From Sulfuriroseicoccus oceanibius (GTDB taxonomy: Bacteria > Verrucomicrobiota > Verrucomicrobiia > Verrucomicrobiales > SLCJ01), in contig NZ_CP066776.1 in NCBI RefSeq assembly GCF_010681825.2, forward strand, positions 806,001 through 870,000: 64,000 bases of DNA, written 5' to 3'. Shown piece by piece: positions 54,403 through 63,700 of the stretch. The notes below the pieces were generated by a model. It ran no database searches, was not told the DNA's origin, and worked only from the letters and a program-made list of their open reading frames with translations. Each line of letters begins with the position of its first letter. Within the stretch, counting starts at the first letter, position 1. Position numbers and translations under genes: made by a program.

Positions 54403-55470
<1,068 letters not shown>

Positions 55471-55537
55471 GGTCGTGATGGTTTGAAATGGGATGTCCGT
55501 GAGTGGAGGGTCCGTGTGTTCGCTCAACGGTGTAGCG

Positions 55538-55551
55538 TGTTCGGATGAACG
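55538..55551 (-). promoter_or_regulatory. LexA-like box 1 upstream of recA
   Basis: TGTTC-GGAT-GAACG: one mismatch to the palindrome TGTTC-N4-GAACA. Its nearest edge is 67 bp upstream of the recA ATG. Confidence 0.65.
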
Positions 55552-55558
55552 GCGCAAG

Positions 55559-55572
55559 CGTTCAATTGAACA
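55559..55572 (-). promoter_or_regulatory. LexA-like box 2 upstream of recA
   Basis: CGTTC-AATT-GAACA: one mismatch to the same palindrome, with the core GTTCAATTGAAC perfectly symmetric. It is exactly 21 bp from box 1, about two helical turns, so two dimers would bind the same DNA face. Confidence 0.65.
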
Positions 55573-55593
55573 GTATTGAAGATTTTTTGAAAA

Positions 55594-57204
55594 TCAGTTC
55601 TTTGGTTTGATCTGTTTGCCATCGAGCGGGCCGTCGTAAAACTGGATTCCAGCGGCTTTCCAGCGGGCTTTGTGATGGTTGAGGCGCTTGGTGAAACTTT
55701 CGAAGTCGCGTTGGTCTGCCGGGCTCCACGCGACTTCGGACAGTGCGGGCATGCGCGGGAAAATACGGGCTTCGAGGTGGTCCATGTTCTGGATGTACTC
55801 GGTCCAGACCGTGCCCTGGACGCCGAGGATCAACGCGCGCTGGGCGTCGTTGGTGGCGACTGATTCCGGTTGGAAGCTGTAGACCTTGGTTGTCGGGGTG
55901 AACCCACCGATCGCCGGTGGCACCGAGTTGTGGTCTTCGGTTTGGTAGTAATCGAAATAGCAATGGGAGTTCGGGCACAGGACGACGGGGTGGCCGTGTT
56001 CCAGCGCGGATTTGGCGAAGTTGGCATCGCGCCAGACCATCACCGCGGCGTCCTCAGGCAGCCCGCCCTCGATGATCTCGTCCCAGCCGATGAGCGTGCG
56101 GCCTTTGCTCTTGAGGTAGGCTTCCATTTGTTTGACGAAGTAGCTTTGCAACGCGTCGCCGTCGGCGAGTCTTTGATCTTTCATCAATCCTGTGCACTTC
56201 GGGCATTCGAGCCACGCGGACTTCGGTACTTCGTCCGCACCAATGTGGATGTACTGCGACGGAAAGAGCTCGAGCACTTCGTCGAGGATGTGCTGGAGGA
56301 ACTCTGTGGTCCCCGGGTTGCCGACGCAGAACACATCCTTGCCACGCAGTCCTTCGGTGAGGATCTCATTGGTCGGGCAGGCGAACTCGGGATGCGCGAC
56401 GAGCACTGCGTACGAGTGGCCGGGCATTTCAATCTCCGGTACCACGGTGATGAAACGTTCTTTGGCGTAGGCGACGATTTCTCTGATCTGATCCTGAGTG
56501 TAATAGCCACCGTAGTCGCCTTGTTGTTGGCCCTTTGGGTTGATCTCTGTGGCTTGCCAGTTCCACGGCTCGGAGGTCTTGTCCTTGCGCCATGCGCCGA
56601 TCTCAGTGAGCTTCGGGTAACGTTTGATCTCGATGCGCCAGCCCGGTCCGTCGACCAAATGCCAGTGGAAGACATTCATTTTGTAGGCCGCCATGTGGTC
56701 GAGGAATCTTTTTACTTCGTCTACCGAGTAGAAGTGGCGTGACACGTCGAGGTGCATCCCGCGCCAGCGGAAACGCGGGGCGTCGGTGATGGTGGTGGCG
56801 GGAATGGTGGCGGCCTCGTCTGCGGAGAAGAGTTGCTTCAGCGATTGGACGCCGTAAAAAACGCCTGCCGCATCAGCGCCGGTGATGGTGATGGTGTGGT
56901 CTCGCGTTTCCAGACGGTAGCCTTCGGCGGGGAGGGTGCCGCTGGTGTCGATGGCGAGAGTGACCTTGGTGGTGGCTGGCGGTTGTTCGGCGTTCGTAGC
57001 TGGGGCGCGTTCGGTGAACCATTGCTCGAGGGATTCTGCGATCGCTTCCAGTTCCGCCGGAGTGGTGACGGTGAGCTTCGAGGTCAGGGGAAATGCGTCG
57101 CCGTGCGTGGTCATCTCCTTTGGTTGGGGGATGATCGATGCAGTGGCAGTGAGTGTGCAAGTGATCCAAAGAGCCGCGAGCGCGGGGAGAATTCGGCCAA
57201 TCAT
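55594..57204 (-). CDS. Secreted beta-N-acetylhexosaminidase (GH20)
   Basis: 536 residues with a signal peptide (ILPALAALWITCTLTATA). GH20b-type N-terminal domain (about 24-140: IIPQPKEMTTHGDAFPLTSKLTV), then the catalytic barrel starting at RFRWRGMHLDVSRHFYSVDEVKRFLDHMAAYKMNVFHWHLVDGPGWRIEIKRYPKLTEIGAWR. The catalytic Asp324-Glu325 pair is in HIGADEVPKSAW. PEIEMPGHSYAVLVAHPEF and LIGWDEIIEGGLPEDAAVMVWR are other family motifs. It removes terminal GlcNAc/GalNAc by substrate-assisted catalysis, complementing the nearby sialidase and fucosidase. Probably periplasmic or extracellular. Confidence 0.95.
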   Translation of the reverse strand: MIGRILPALAALWITCTLTATASIIPQPKEMTTHGDAFPLTSKLTVTTPAELEAIAESLEQWFTERAPATNAEQPPATTKVTLAIDTSGTLPAEGYRLETRDHTITITGADAAGVFYGVQSLKQLFSADEAATIPATTITDAPRFRWRGMHLDVSRHFYSVDEVKRFLDHMAAYKMNVFHWHLVDGPGWRIEIKRYPKLTEIGAWRKDKTSEPWNWQATEINPKGQQQGDYGGYYTQDQIREIVAYAKERFITVVPEIEMPGHSYAVLVAHPEFACPTNEILTEGLRGKDVFCVGNPGTTEFLQHILDEVLELFPSQYIHIGADEVPKSAWLECPKCTGLMKDQRLADGDALQSYFVKQMEAYLKSKGRTLIGWDEIIEGGLPEDAAVMVWRDANFAKSALEHGHPVVLCPNSHCYFDYYQTEDHNSVPPAIGGFTPTTKVYSFQPESVATNDAQRALILGVQGTVWTEYIQNMDHLEARIFPRMPALSEVAWSPADQRDFESFTKRLNHHKARWKAAGIQFYDGPLDGKQIKPKN

Positions 57205-57814: not shown

Positions 57815-60800
57815 ATGAAATTCACCAAATTTGCTGATTCCCGTCGTTGCTTGTGGCGCGCATTTTCCGTCTCGCTTGGGGCGCTTGCTTTGATTGGAGG
57901 AGCTGTCGAGTCGGCGTCGGCGCAGACTACGGTGGCGATTACCAATGGAAGTTTCGAAGACGGGGTGGCCGGGAATGGTGCGCCGTCGGGGTGGGAGCTG
58001 ACACGGGGAGGAACGAATGACCTGGGCGTGGCGACTGGTGGGATAGACGGTTCGCGGATGTTGTGGATGGGGCCGGACACGGCGATTCGCCAGGATTTGG
58101 GCTACACCCTGCAGGCGGGTGAGACCTTGACTTTGCAGTACCGGAGTTCGCGCGGCGCGAACTATGGACGACGGATGCAGTTGTTGGCGAAAGATGGCTC
58201 AAGCTATCAGCTGATGGCAGAGACAACCACGCAGACGGGGAGCGGTAGCTGGCCGAATATCACGCTGGAATACACGGTGGCGGCTGGTTACGCGGGCAAG
58301 GAGTTGGCGCTGCAGATCGTGGGGGATGACACCAACGACCTGAATACGGAAGACTATAATGAGTTTGATCACTTCCGCCTGACGACATCGCGCACCGTGC
58401 TCACGCCGTATGCGTGGTATCGCGCCGATAGCGGGGTGAGTGAGGACGCGGGCGGCGCGGTTTCCAACTGGGCCAACCAAGTCGGGACCGGCGACGACTT
58501 GGGCAATGTGGTCGGGCGCCCGTCGATGGTTGCGCTGTCGCGCAGTGGTGGCGGATCCGCCGAGGTGGTGGCATTCGACGGCAGCTCCTCATTGTGGGCG
58601 CCAACGTCGAGTTGGGGGAGCGTGGATGGCAACCGAACGGTGGTCGTGCATGCGCGGGTCACAGCGGCCCGTGACGGCTTTTTGTTCGACGGTAGTACTG
58701 GTGTCGGATTAACCCGTGCCCAGGTGCGCTCGAACACGTGGCAGGCAGGGGTGGCAAGCTCAGGTGGGTTTGCCAACGCCGATACCGACACGACAGGGGT
58801 CACTCTGAACACGTGGCAGACACACATTTTCACCTACGCCGAATCGGGCGGAAGCACACAAGTCACGCATTACATCGATGGATCCGAGGTGGGAACGCAT
58901 TCGGTGGCGCGGGACGGCGCGCTGGGTGGCTTGATCATCGCGGGCAACGGCGCCGCAGCAGCCACGCTTCCGACCCAGGTGGCCGAGGTTTTGGTGTACA
59001 ACAGCGCACTGAGCGCAAGCGAACGCAGCGAGGTGACGACCGACCTGACCGCGCGTTGGGGGGATCTGATGGACCTGCCTTATGATTATCAATCGGCGGC
59101 GGTGGTGCAGACGTCGGAGGAGATTTCGATCTACGGCATCCACGGGGTGTTGGCGTTGCAGGTGAACTCGACGGGGAATGTCACGCCGTTCAACCTGACC
59201 GGGCTCACATTTGATCTGACGGGAACCACGGATCTCGGCGACATCGAGGACGTGCGATTGTACTCGAGCCCGAGCGCAGGTGCGTTTGATCCGAGCCGCG
59301 CGACCTTGGTGGAAACCCTGACCGGACCATTTGACGGGACTCTGAGCTTTTCCACTCCGGCTCCGGTGGCATCGAATAGCCATCACTTCTGGGTGGCGGT
59401 TAAGTTGAAAGGAACGTCGACTTTGGGCGATGTGCTGGACGGTCGCATCACTGGGTTTTCCATTGATGGAGCGGATGCTGGCAGCTATGTGCCGACGGGA
59501 ATTGATCCGGCGGGCGAGCTGACGGTCAATTCGCAGTTCTTCTCGACAATCGTGCGCAAAGAGGGCGACGACGGATCGCGGAGCTACCGCATTCCGGGCT
59601 TGGCGACCTCGAACGACGGCACGTTGATCGCGGTGTACGACATCCGATGGAATGGCAGCGGTGACCTTCCGGCGAACATTGACGTGGGAGTTTCCCGCTC
59701 GACGGATGGTGGCTTCACCTGGGGGCCAATGATCACGGCGATGGACTTTGATGGCAGCATTGCCGGGTCGAGTGGCAACGGAGTGGGCGATCCGTCCATT
59801 CTCGTGGACCGTGAGACGGGGCGCATTTGGTGTGCGGCGCTGCACTCGTTTGGCAACAATGGCTGGGCGGGATCCGGTCCGGGGCTCACTGCCGAGGAGA
59901 CCGGGCAATTTGTACTAAATTACTCCGACGACGACGGCCTGACCTGGAGCGAGCCGGTTTCGATCACCGAGAGTATCAAGGATCCTGCGTGGCGTTTGTA
60001 TTTCAACGGACCGGGCAAGGGGATCTGTCTGCGCGACGGGACATTGGTTTTCCCAGCCCAGTACCGCGATGAAAGCGGTACGGCGCGCTCGAACTTCATC
60101 TACTCGACCGACAATGGCGCCACTTGGAACCACGGCGCGCCGGCGGTTGCCTCAGGTAGTCCATGGACGACCGAGGCGCAGATGATCGAGTTGGACAACG
60201 GAGATTTGTTGATCACGATGCGCAACCACGCGGGCAATGGCCAGCGGGCGTGGGCGACGTACTCGTGGGATCATGAGACCGAGACCATTGCCGACGGCAC
60301 GTGGAGCGCGATCCGCTACGACCAGACCGATCCGGTGGTGATGGCGTCGATCGAACGCTACAGCTCGACGCTCGACGGAGACCCGTATTCGGGCCTGCTT
60401 TTCGCCAACCCGGACAACAGCAACCGCTCGCGCATGAGCATCCGCCTCAGTTTGGATGAAGGCCAGACCTGGGCGTACAAGCGCAAGATCGATGACCGTC
60501 CGGCGGCGTACTCGTGCATGACGATTCTGCCGGATGGCGATATCGGGATTTTCTACGAGACGGGTGATCAGTCATCGGTAGCGGAGATGCGCTTTTGCCG
60601 GTTCCCGGTCGAGTGGGTGGTGGGCGATCTGACGGTCGACACCGATGGCGATGGGATGCCGGATTTCTATGAGGACACCAATGGCCTCAACAAGAACAGC
60701 GCGGCGGATGCTACGCTCGACGCCGATAGCGACGGGGCGAACAACTTGAACGAATACCTCGCCGGAACGGATCCACAGCAGGCACCGGGCGGTGGCAATC

Positions 60801-63700
60801 TGGGCGTGGTCGTGAGTGCGGGCAGTGACTTTTCCACCATCGAACCAACGGCGACTCTGGCGGGCTCTGCCAGCGATGACGGGTTGCCGAACCCACCGGC
60901 TGCGTTCACCACAGCGTGGAGTGTAACCTATGGACCGGGGGCGGTTACGTTTGCGGATGCGAGTTCGCCGACGACCGATGTGACGTTCGCCGCTGAGGGG
61001 ACTTACGTGCTGCGTCTGACAGCAAATGACGGCGCCGTGATCACGGTGGATGAAGTGCGGGTCGACTACGCATTGACTCCGCCTGCCGGGGTGTATGCAA
61101 ACTTCCGCGCGGGAGATGGCGTGACGGCTGACGGCTCGGGCACGATTTCCAATTGGGCGGACCAGTCCGGTAATGGGCGCAATTTGGACCAGGTGGTGGG
61201 AGCTCCATCGGTGAGCGAAACTCTGGGACTGAGCGGTCAGTCGGTGGAGCTGGTTGTCATGGACGGCGACGACTCGCTGTGGGCGGGGAATGGCTTCGGT
61301 GTGATCCAAGGCAACCGTACGATCGCAGTCCGCGCGCGGTTGGGTGATGTGGCTAATGGCTACCTTTTCGATGGCAGCAGTGTCGCTGGACTGACCCGCG
61401 CCCACGTGGCGGCGGGCGATTGGCAGGTCGGCGTGCAGGTGGATGACTTTGCCGGAGCCGATCCGGTGACCACCAGCGTGGAGGCCAACGATTGGCAGGA
61501 CCATGTGTTTGTGTTCATTGAATCGGGCGGTAGCACCCATGTGACCCATTGGATCGATGGTGTCCAGGTGGGATCACATACGGTGGCGACGGATACTTCG
61601 CTCTCCGGATTGATCCTGGGCATGAGCGGCGCCGCTACCGATGGACTGAATGTGGAGTTCGCCGAAGTGCTGGTTTACGACCGTGCATTGGATGTGGGCG
61701 AACGCGATGAGTTGCAGCGCTACCTCGACCTGCGCTGGGCGGAGCTTGGCGATGCGCCGATGGATTTCACCTCTGCCTCCGTCGTGCAGACTGCGGGCGA
61801 TGTGTTCAAGTTCGGCACCTATGGGGTGGCGGCGCTGGCGGTGACCTCGTATGGCAATCAGGGCAGCTACAACCTGACCGGACTCGAGTTCGACCTCAGC
61901 GGGACCACTGACCTAGGCGACATCGCGGAGGTGCGACTTTACTCGACCGGCGGCGACCGTGAGTTTTCGTCCAGTAGCGCGACCTTGATTGCAACACTGG
62001 ACGGACCATTCAACGGACCGCTTACGTTCAATGCCAGCGCGGCCGTGACTCCAGGCATCCACCATTTCTGGGTCGCTGTGAAAATGAGCGGCGCCCCGGT
62101 GGACGGCGATGTAATCGACGCGCGCATCACTGGCTTCTCGGTGGACGGGCCGTCGGCGGGCAGCTACGTGCCAAGCGTGACCTCACCGCCTGAGTTCCTC
62201 ACCGGAACGTCTGGCTTCTTCTCCACCGTGGTGCGCAAGGGCGGCGACGATGGATCCGGTAACTTCCGCATCCCGGCGATGGTGGTTTCCAATGCGGGCA
62301 CCGTGATTGCCGGCTTCGACGTGCGCTGGGATGGCAACGATATCTCGTCGCCGGACCTGCCGGCGAATATCGATACCGCAGTGATGCGCTCGCTTGATGG
62401 AGGCTACACGTGGGAGCCTATGATCACGGTGATGGACTTCGATGCCAACGAGGCCGGATCCCAGGGCAATGGCGTGGGTGATCCTACCTTGCTCGTTGAT
62501 CGTAACACCGGCCGCATCTGGTGCGCGGCGCTGTGGTCCAAGGGGAACCGCGGGTGGTGGGGCTCGGGTCCGGGACTCACGGCCGACGAAACCGGACAGT
62601 TCATGCTCAGCTACTCGGACGACGACGGCGTGACGTGGTCGGAGCCGTTCTCGATCACCTCGCAAGTGAAGGACCCTGCGTGGAACCTGTATTTCAATGG
62701 TCCGGGCAAGGGGATTTGCACCCGCGAGGGGACGCTGGTTTTCCCTGCTCAGTACAAGGATGCCGGCGGCACGCCACGCTCGAACTTTATCTATTCGACG
62801 GATAATGGAGCGACGTGGGTTACCGCACCTGCGGCAATTGCATCGGGCAACCCATGGACGACGGAGTCGCAGATTGTCGAGTTGGACAACGGGGATCTGT
62901 TGTTGTCGATGCGCAACCATGATGGCCGCAAGCAGCGCTTGTGGGCCCGTTTCTCATGGGACCGCGGTGCCGGTGAAACGATAGCCGACGGCTCATGGAG
63001 TGCGCCTTGGTTCGAGCAAACCGATCCAACCTGCATGGCAAGTGTCGAGCGCTACCGTTCGACGCTCGACGGCCATCCGTTCTCGGCGTTGTTGTTCTCC
63101 AACCCGGACAGCACGGCGCGTGAGAAGATGAGTATCCGCCTGAGCTTGGATGAAGGGGTGACCTGGCCGTACAAGCGCAAGATCGACGATTTGTTGTCGG
63201 CCTACTCGTGTCTTGCTGTGATGCCGGATGGGGATATCGGGATCTTTTATGAGACTGGGGAGCAATCATCGATCACTCGCATGGTGTTTGCCCGCTTCCC
63301 ACTCAGCTGGCTGGTGGGCGATACGGACACCGACGGCGACCGTATCCCGGACTTCTATGAAGATGTCATGGGCCTGAACAAACAAGACGCGACCGACGCG
63401 GCAAAAGATGCTGACGGTGACGGTGTTAGCAATCTAGGTGAATTCGAGGCCCAGACCGATGCGAAGCGCAAAGACTCCGTGCTCAAGGCGGACGTCGTGC
63501 CGCAGGGCAATGGCTTCGCGCTGCGTTGGGACTCGGTCGAGTACGTCCACTACCGCGTGGAGAAGTCGGCCTCGCTCGAAGACGGAAGCTGGACTCCGGT
63601 CCCCGGTTATGAAAGTGTTCGAGCTGCCGGATCTGTGACTAACATTACTTTGCCGGAAAGTGCCGATCCACGCTGCTTCTATCGCGTGGTGACCCAGTAG
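57815..63700 (+). CDS. Giant secreted sialidase with two catalytic modules (GH33)
   Basis: 1961 residues with a signal peptide ending ESASA-QTT. Order: a beta-sandwich (about 38-190), LamG-like domain (about 195-420), BNR-associated beta-domain (about 425-570), sialidase propeller 1 (about 575-940), Asp-rich calcium-type repeats (about 943-990), PKD-like domain (about 996-1087), second LamG-like (about 1092-1312), second BNR-associated domain, sialidase 2 (about 1468-1832), Asp-rich repeats and a C-terminal beta-domain. Each propeller has the RIP motif (YRIPG, FRIPA), Asp boxes (STDGGFTW, STDNGATW, SLDEGQTW), the Arg of MSIRLSLDEG and the Tyr of AYSC before MPDGDIGIFYE-type sequence. Both look catalytically complete. 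Should cleave terminal sialic acids or related nonulosonates outside the cell. No PEP-CTERM tail. Confidence 0.93.
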   Translation: MKFTKFADSRRCLWRAFSVSLGALALIGGAVESASAQTTVAITNGSFEDGVAGNGAPSGWELTRGGTNDLGVATGGIDGSRMLWMGPDTAIRQDLGYTLQAGETLTLQYRSSRGANYGRRMQLLAKDGSSYQLMAETTTQTGSGSWPNITLEYTVAAGYAGKELALQIVGDDTNDLNTEDYNEFDHFRLTTSRTVLTPYAWYRADSGVSEDAGGAVSNWANQVGTGDDLGNVVGRPSMVALSRSGGGSAEVVAFDGSSSLWAPTSSWGSVDGNRTVVVHARVTAARDGFLFDGSTGVGLTRAQVRSNTWQAGVASSGGFANADTDTTGVTLNTWQTHIFTYAESGGSTQVTHYIDGSEVGTHSVARDGALGGLIIAGNGAAAATLPTQVAEVLVYNSALSASERSEVTTDLTARWGDLMDLPYDYQSAAVVQTSEEISIYGIHGVLALQVNSTGNVTPFNLTGLTFDLTGTTDLGDIEDVRLYSSPSAGAFDPSRATLVETLTGPFDGTLSFSTPAPVASNSHHFWVAVKLKGTSTLGDVLDGRITGFSIDGADAGSYVPTGIDPAGELTVNSQFFSTIVRKEGDDGSRSYRIPGLATSNDGTLIAVYDIRWNGSGDLPANIDVGVSRSTDGGFTWGPMITAMDFDGSIAGSSGNGVGDPSILVDRETGRIWCAALHSFGNNGWAGSGPGLTAEETGQFVLNYSDDDGLTWSEPVSITESIKDPAWRLYFNGPGKGICLRDGTLVFPAQYRDESGTARSNFIYSTDNGATWNHGAPAVASGSPWTTEAQMIELDNGDLLITMRNHAGNGQRAWATYSWDHETETIADGTWSAIRYDQTDPVVMASIERYSSTLDGDPYSGLLFANPDNSNRSRMSIRLSLDEGQTWAYKRKIDDRPAAYSCMTILPDGDIGIFYETGDQSSVAEMRFCRFPVEWVVGDLTVDTDGDGMPDFYEDTNGLNKNSAADATLDADSDGANNLNEYLAGTDPQQAPGGGNLGVVVSAGSDFSTIEPTATLAGSASDDGLPNPPAAFTTAWSVTYGPGAVTFADASSPTTDVTFAAEGTYVLRLTANDGAVITVDEVRVDYALTPPAGVYANFRAGDGVTADGSGTISNWADQSGNGRNLDQVVGAPSVSETLGLSGQSVELVVMDGDDSLWAGNGFGVIQGNRTIAVRARLGDVANGYLFDGSSVAGLTRAHVAAGDWQVGVQVDDFAGADPVTTSVEANDWQDHVFVFIESGGSTHVTHWIDGVQVGSHTVATDTSLSGLILGMSGAATDGLNVEFAEVLVYDRALDVGERDELQRYLDLRWAELGDAPMDFTSASVVQTAGDVFKFGTYGVAALAVTSYGNQGSYNLTGLEFDLSGTTDLGDIAEVRLYSTGGDREFSSSSATLIATLDGPFNGPLTFNASAAVTPGIHHFWVAVKMSGAPVDGDVIDARITGFSVDGPSAGSYVPSVTSPPEFLTGTSGFFSTVVRKGGDDGSGNFRIPAMVVSNAGTVIAGFDVRWDGNDISSPDLPANIDTAVMRSLDGGYTWEPMITVMDFDANEAGSQGNGVGDPTLLVDRNTGRIWCAALWSKGNRGWWGSGPGLTADETGQFMLSYSDDDGVTWSEPFSITSQVKDPAWNLYFNGPGKGICTREGTLVFPAQYKDAGGTPRSNFIYSTDNGATWVTAPAAIASGNPWTTESQIVELDNGDLLLSMRNHDGRKQRLWARFSWDRGAGETIADGSWSAPWFEQTDPTCMASVERYRSTLDGHPFSALLFSNPDSTAREKMSIRLSLDEGVTWPYKRKIDDLLSAYSCLAVMPDGDIGIFYETGEQSSITRMVFARFPLSWLVGDTDTDGDRIPDFYEDVMGLNKQDATDAAKDADGDGVSNLGEFEAQTDAKRKDSVLKADVVPQGNGFALRWDSVEYVHYRVEKSASLEDGSWTPVPGYESVRAAGSVTNITLPESADPRCFYRVVTQ

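Follow-up and report, generated by a model that had tools for sequence, protein, structure and literature searches.

The recA gene of Sulfuriroseicoccus oceanibius lies on the reverse strand of the window, the whole stretch of 64,000 nucleotides analysed here, and is preceded by a gene for a 536-residue protein (Table 1). In the interval between the two genes, a scan of the window sequence located TGTTCGGATGAACG at 55538–55551 (box 2, nearer to recA) and CGTTCAATTGAACA at 55559–55572 (box 1), which are 21 bp apart and together form a 35-bp imperfect inverted repeat. Each differs by one base from the motif TGTTC-N4-GAACA, box 2 matching 9 of its 10 conserved positions, and they are the sole two sites in the window within one mismatch of this motif. 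A preliminary description had reported two such boxes, 21 bp apart and each one base off, and its coordinates and single mismatches were confirmed. Aligned with its relatives, recA probably starts at the ATG at 55470–55468. A TTG start at 55557 in the open reading frame listing, which would place box 2 inside the frame, was rejected as a mechanical extension since the relatives align at the ATG. Both boxes therefore lie upstream of recA, box 2 at 68–81 nt and box 1 at 89–102 nt from the ATG. Elsewhere in the window, positions 57815–63700 hold a 1961-aa open frame whose halves are alike and which appears sialidase-like by sequence reading.

Table 1. Features of the recA locus, in window coordinates.
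Feature	Position	Strand	Remarks
LexA box 2, sense CGTTCATCCGAACA	55538..55551	-	lies in the 17 nt between the putative -35 and -10
LexA box 1, sense TGTTCAATTGAACG	55559..55572	-	1 nt upstream of the putative -35
Putative -35, TTGCGC	55552..55557	-	in alignment with TTGCTA and TTGCAA in the two family relatives
Putative -10, TACACC	55529..55534	-	inferred; 17 nt from the -35
recA, start MAKSADT	54403..55470	-	TIGR02012, 507 bits
Upstream gene, 536 aa	55594..57204	-	beta-hexosaminidase-like by sequence reading; stop 21 nt before box 1

The proposed -35 and -10 hexamers agree with the consensus at 6 of 12 bases, and 14 of the 17 bases of the spacer between them are occupied by box 2. A sigma-70 consensus scan called no promoter in the recA upstream region, the putative hexamers included. 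All three family members examined carry a TTG hexamer 1 nt past box 1 and a TA hexamer 17 nt on, an arrangement which fits a promoter. The counterparts of box 1 in the two family relatives are TGTTCAAATGAACGCTTGC (G002) and TGTTCAATCGAACGCTTGC (G001), with one box each; the relatives' boxes TGTTCAAATGAACG and TGTTCAATCGAACG are each followed by CTTGC, as is TGTTCAATTGAACG here. Box 2 was not found in either of these two relatives. In other genera, a single recA box lies farther from, or downstream of, such promoter elements as judged by eye. The simplest history would make box 1 the ancestral operator of the family and box 2 a recently gained second one.

The number of boxes in the window is not in itself evidence. 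Shuffled versions of the 64 kb window held a mean of 1.70 one-mismatch sites, with two or more in 44 of 100 shuffles, so that two sites are what shuffling gives; as the count is not significant, it is the position of the boxes, the regulon and the relatives that carry the argument. The genome (3,496,488 bp, one contig) contains 59 places within one mismatch of TGTTC-N4-GAACA, 12 of which are an integron repeat. By our own arithmetic, the approximately 47 non-repeat places in 3.50 Mb correspond to a chance expectation of about 0.0016 sites for the 123 bp that separate the recA ATG from the stop of the upstream gene. The location of the recA boxes is surprising, their number in the window unsurprising. 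The exact motif occurs at four sites in the genome and no more, all of which precede lexA, imuA-imuB-dnaE2 or an integron integrase (two). The relaxed form YGTTC-N4-GAACR is found at 14 places, six of them at the lexA, imuA and integrase promoters and at recA, and the same pattern read backwards as a control at none. The eight places outside these SOS promoters were set aside, seven being inside reading frames and one, at 611623, intergenic without a clear target. A further 17 one-mismatch stretches, read among the matches listed, lie mostly inside genes and show no clear SOS gene. Another one-mismatch place, at 525757, was rejected as a GC-rich hairpin between genes that appear chaperone-like by sequence reading.

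A single LexA match is present in the genome (TIGR00498, 167 bits), and alignment to solved LexA structures reveals conservation of an Ala-Gly pair, a Ser and a Lys, which we take to be the cleavage residues. The lexA promoter itself carries TGTTCTCTCGAACA, an exact copy of the motif 19 nt before the ATG. A deviating motif at lexA, which the preliminary description had named as evidence against its reading, was not found. The proposal in the preliminary description that the recA boxes are LexA operators gains support from this identity of motif, and the search it had suggested near imuA, imuB and dnaE2 uncovered an exact box situated 10 nt ahead of that operon's first gene. The operon encodes a 224-aa protein, an ImuB-like polymerase with IMS domains and an error-prone DnaE2 (NF004225, 1104 bits); a family search of the 224-aa first gene gave no match, and the name imuA rests on position. 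The recA boxes are very probably LexA operators, and it is highly likely that the pair constitutes a double LexA operator belonging to the SOS regulon of this member of the Verrucomicrobiales. Erill et al. reportedly described in 2016 a Verrucomicrobia SOS regulon with the LexA motif TGTTC-N4-GAACA. That regulon has the same motif and the targets lexA, recA and imuA-imuB-dnaE2 in common with the present genome, which differs from it in having two putative recA operators and, in its predicted regulon, two integron integrases. Taken alone, the recA pair would be a SOS operator of the usual kind that is present twice, and its novelty is small.

The distribution of recA boxes was surveyed at 76 recA loci, comprising 49 of 80 loci from named genomes (Verrucomicrobia-like and near) and 27 from relatives; locus L125 lacks the 5' part of recA. 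Among the 28 relatives searched, own genome counted, 27 have recA, G007 being without a match. Of the 76 loci, 23 have a box within one mismatch upstream of recA, and at two of these 23, namely here and at L020, there are two boxes. The lexA promoters of the two family relatives carry the motif exactly (G002) or with one mismatch (G001). LexA had no match in 7 of the 28 relatives. None of the 6 genomes that have recA and lack a LexA match carries a recA box, as opposed to 10 of 21 with LexA, a small sample in which the six belong to one genus; they consequently count as one event, and the contrast is phylogenetically confounded. This genus (g3: G003, G010, G014, G017, G021 and G025) shows neither a LexA match nor a LexA-type recA box. 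At the named Akkermansia loci L030 and L045, recA likewise lacks a box within one mismatch. Such a box is missing from 11 of the 21 relatives having LexA, including all five genomes of family f4 (G005, G012, G019, G023 and G027), where LexA is present and the motif occurs within one mismatch at neither lexA nor recA. The LexA of this family may use a different motif.

In the LexA-bound state envisaged for an undamaged cell, LexA dimers would sit on box 1 beside the -35 and on box 2 in the spacer between -35 and -10, thereby excluding RNA polymerase. Upon damage, RecA filaments would induce LexA self-cleavage and recA would be released. Box 1 would represent the operator common to the family, and box 2 a local gain placed where it would directly obstruct the promoter core. 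This LexA is also predicted to repress lexA, imuA-imuB-dnaE2 and the two chromosomal integron integrases, in the latter case from a box over the start codon. The sites, the genes they precede, their enrichment at integrases across the order and the LexA residues for cleavage are observed; LexA binding, the promoter elements, induction, and redundancy, not cooperativity, of the two boxes we infer.

At the double operator of E. coli lexA, the two sites are spaced 21 bp apart. This is likewise a case in which a single SOS promoter has two neighbouring LexA operators, although gene and LexA motif differ from those described here, and the accessible part of the study reports a negligible effect of the double operator and no evidence of cooperativity between dimers (PMC7440846). 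If the second site were equally dispensable at recA, box 1 would be the sole working operator and box 2 a chance or weak spacer site without effect. The absence of box 2 from both family relatives and the rarity of second boxes at recA point in this direction, against which stand the low chance expectation for the recA gap, the nearly complete match of box 2 to the conserved positions and its place in the promoter spacer, a strong position for a repressor. A single working operator is, on balance, unlikely.

The preliminary description had suggested that the two-turn spacing would allow paired dimers and perhaps tighter repression. On this reading, two LexA dimers would bind cooperatively on one helix face and sharpen the recA switch, for which a distance of 21 bp, equal to two helical turns, would be suitable. 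Genomes of the order were searched for two GTTC-N4-GAAC boxes 19–27 bp apart (start to start), and such pairs recur in 22 of 386 genomes compared with 5 for the pattern read backwards. Their spacings range from 20 to 27 bp, however, with one group at 20–22 and another at 25–27, and two-turn phasing is therefore no rule. Owing to this variable spacing and to the lack of cooperativity reported at E. coli lexA in the part of the study cited above, a tightening of repression by paired dimers is rated possible but unproven, and cooperative binding as the explanation of the recA pair is about as doubtful as a single working operator. It is very improbable that the palindromes act as RNA hairpins, whether to terminate transcription of the upstream gene or as a leader structure of recA, since, for all that the pair forms an inverted repeat, no terminator was found in 55450–55750 and the motif recurs in unrelated contexts at the starts of lexA, imuA and the integrases, as well as at recA genes elsewhere whose flanks differ. 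A double LexA operator is the preferred reading of the recA pair.

Within the genome, the paired-box pattern occurs once, at recA, and it is absent from the two other family genomes searched. Reading of the flanks of the 22 paired loci placed five at integrases, nine at a transporter gene (one by flank similarity only) and one at the recA gene described here. Another two (L173 and L176) precede a radical-SAM protein that reads as a spore-photolyase-like repair enzyme, and one (L189) a deaminase-like gene; the remaining four fall in repeats, in coding sequence or in unclear surroundings. At the transporter loci (L178–L186, from nine genomes of the order), the boxes are 20–21 bp apart beside a gene that appears MFS-like by reading and is often transcribed divergently from a second one, the product of which ends in TKTFRVPPDF or a similar sequence. 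A link of this transporter to the SOS response is possible.

The two predicted integrase targets were identified as integron integrases with 363 and 327 bits against TIGR02249, for which the cut-off is 265. Each of the two carries an exact box that encloses an in-frame ATG, TGTTCAC-ATG-AACA and TGTTCCT-ATG-AACA, and these boxes are of the TGTTC-N4-GAACA type and not of the E. coli type. Arrays of attC-like repeats lie beside the integrases, with 37 and 32 conserved core copies in the stretches examined. The genome carries two large chromosomal integrons, at 2266692–2302862 and 2974275–3002952, which share the same attC-like repeat; the integrase of the first faces its array and that of the second faces away. 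A search of the integron stretches against Rfam returned no family.

Integrases above the TIGR02249 cut-off are present in at least 140 of the 386 genomes of the order, and all 148 loci from other genomes among the matches listed were examined, three of them placed by coordinates. Near the integrase start, an exact box was found at 27 and a box within one mismatch at 56 of these 148 listed loci. Nineteen permuted palindromes of the same five letters, used as a control, reached at most 2 exact and 6 one-mismatch occurrences on the same listed loci. The upstream stop lies outside the sequence examined at 15 loci and one frame is broken, and the counts are unchanged (27 and 56) on the 132 clean loci. 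Partial sets of 80 and 107 loci gave 14 and 17 exact boxes and 30 and 34 within one mismatch, respectively. Among the matches listed, 16 of 61 integrase boxes enclose an in-frame ATG, for which our own estimate of the chance rate is 1 in 48. The E. coli motif CTGT-N8-ACAG occurs exactly at 4 of the 148 listed loci.

A previous survey of 1,103 integrase starts for 15 motifs found, in its accessible text, the E. coli type alone and concluded that LexA controls integrases only in hosts where it recognises an E. coli-type motif (Cambray et al., 2011; PMC3108266); it predates the 2016 paper on the verrucomicrobial motif. The SOS-controlled integrons of Vibrio and of mobile elements, as presented there, also have a LexA box in the zone from -100 to +50 of intI (PMC3108266). 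Their boxes all belong to the E. coli type, in contrast to the ones described here, which follow an unrelated verrucomicrobial motif and often lie around the start codon. Two reviews treat integrons in Verrucomicrobiota as well as LexA and SOS control in general (2021 and 2022; PMC8618304, PMC8946536), and the portions of their text covered here make no connection between verrucomicrobial integrons and LexA. A literature search, with most subscription papers outside its coverage, returned no report of the verrucomicrobial LexA motif at integrases.

The candidate LexA boxes found at integrases across the order argue against the restriction to E. coli-type motifs proposed in 2011. SOS control of integrases has probably arisen separately in Verrucomicrobiota, as a convergent trait with an unrelated LexA motif that is often built around the start codon (TGTTCNN-ATG-AACA). 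For a specialist, the surprising part is this link to the integrases, and the regulon matters more than the recA pair. If the link holds, damage-triggered gene shuffling would not be restricted to LexA of the E. coli type, contrary to the conclusion of 2011. The damage control of cassette shuffling is directly testable in cultured Verrucomicrobiales. The proportion of boxed integrase loci, 56 of 148 among the matches listed, suggests that strong selection repeatedly places cassette shuffling under damage control. Collectively, the sites suggest that gene capture in this phylum would be triggered by DNA damage, as is the case in Vibrio, via a different recognition sequence.
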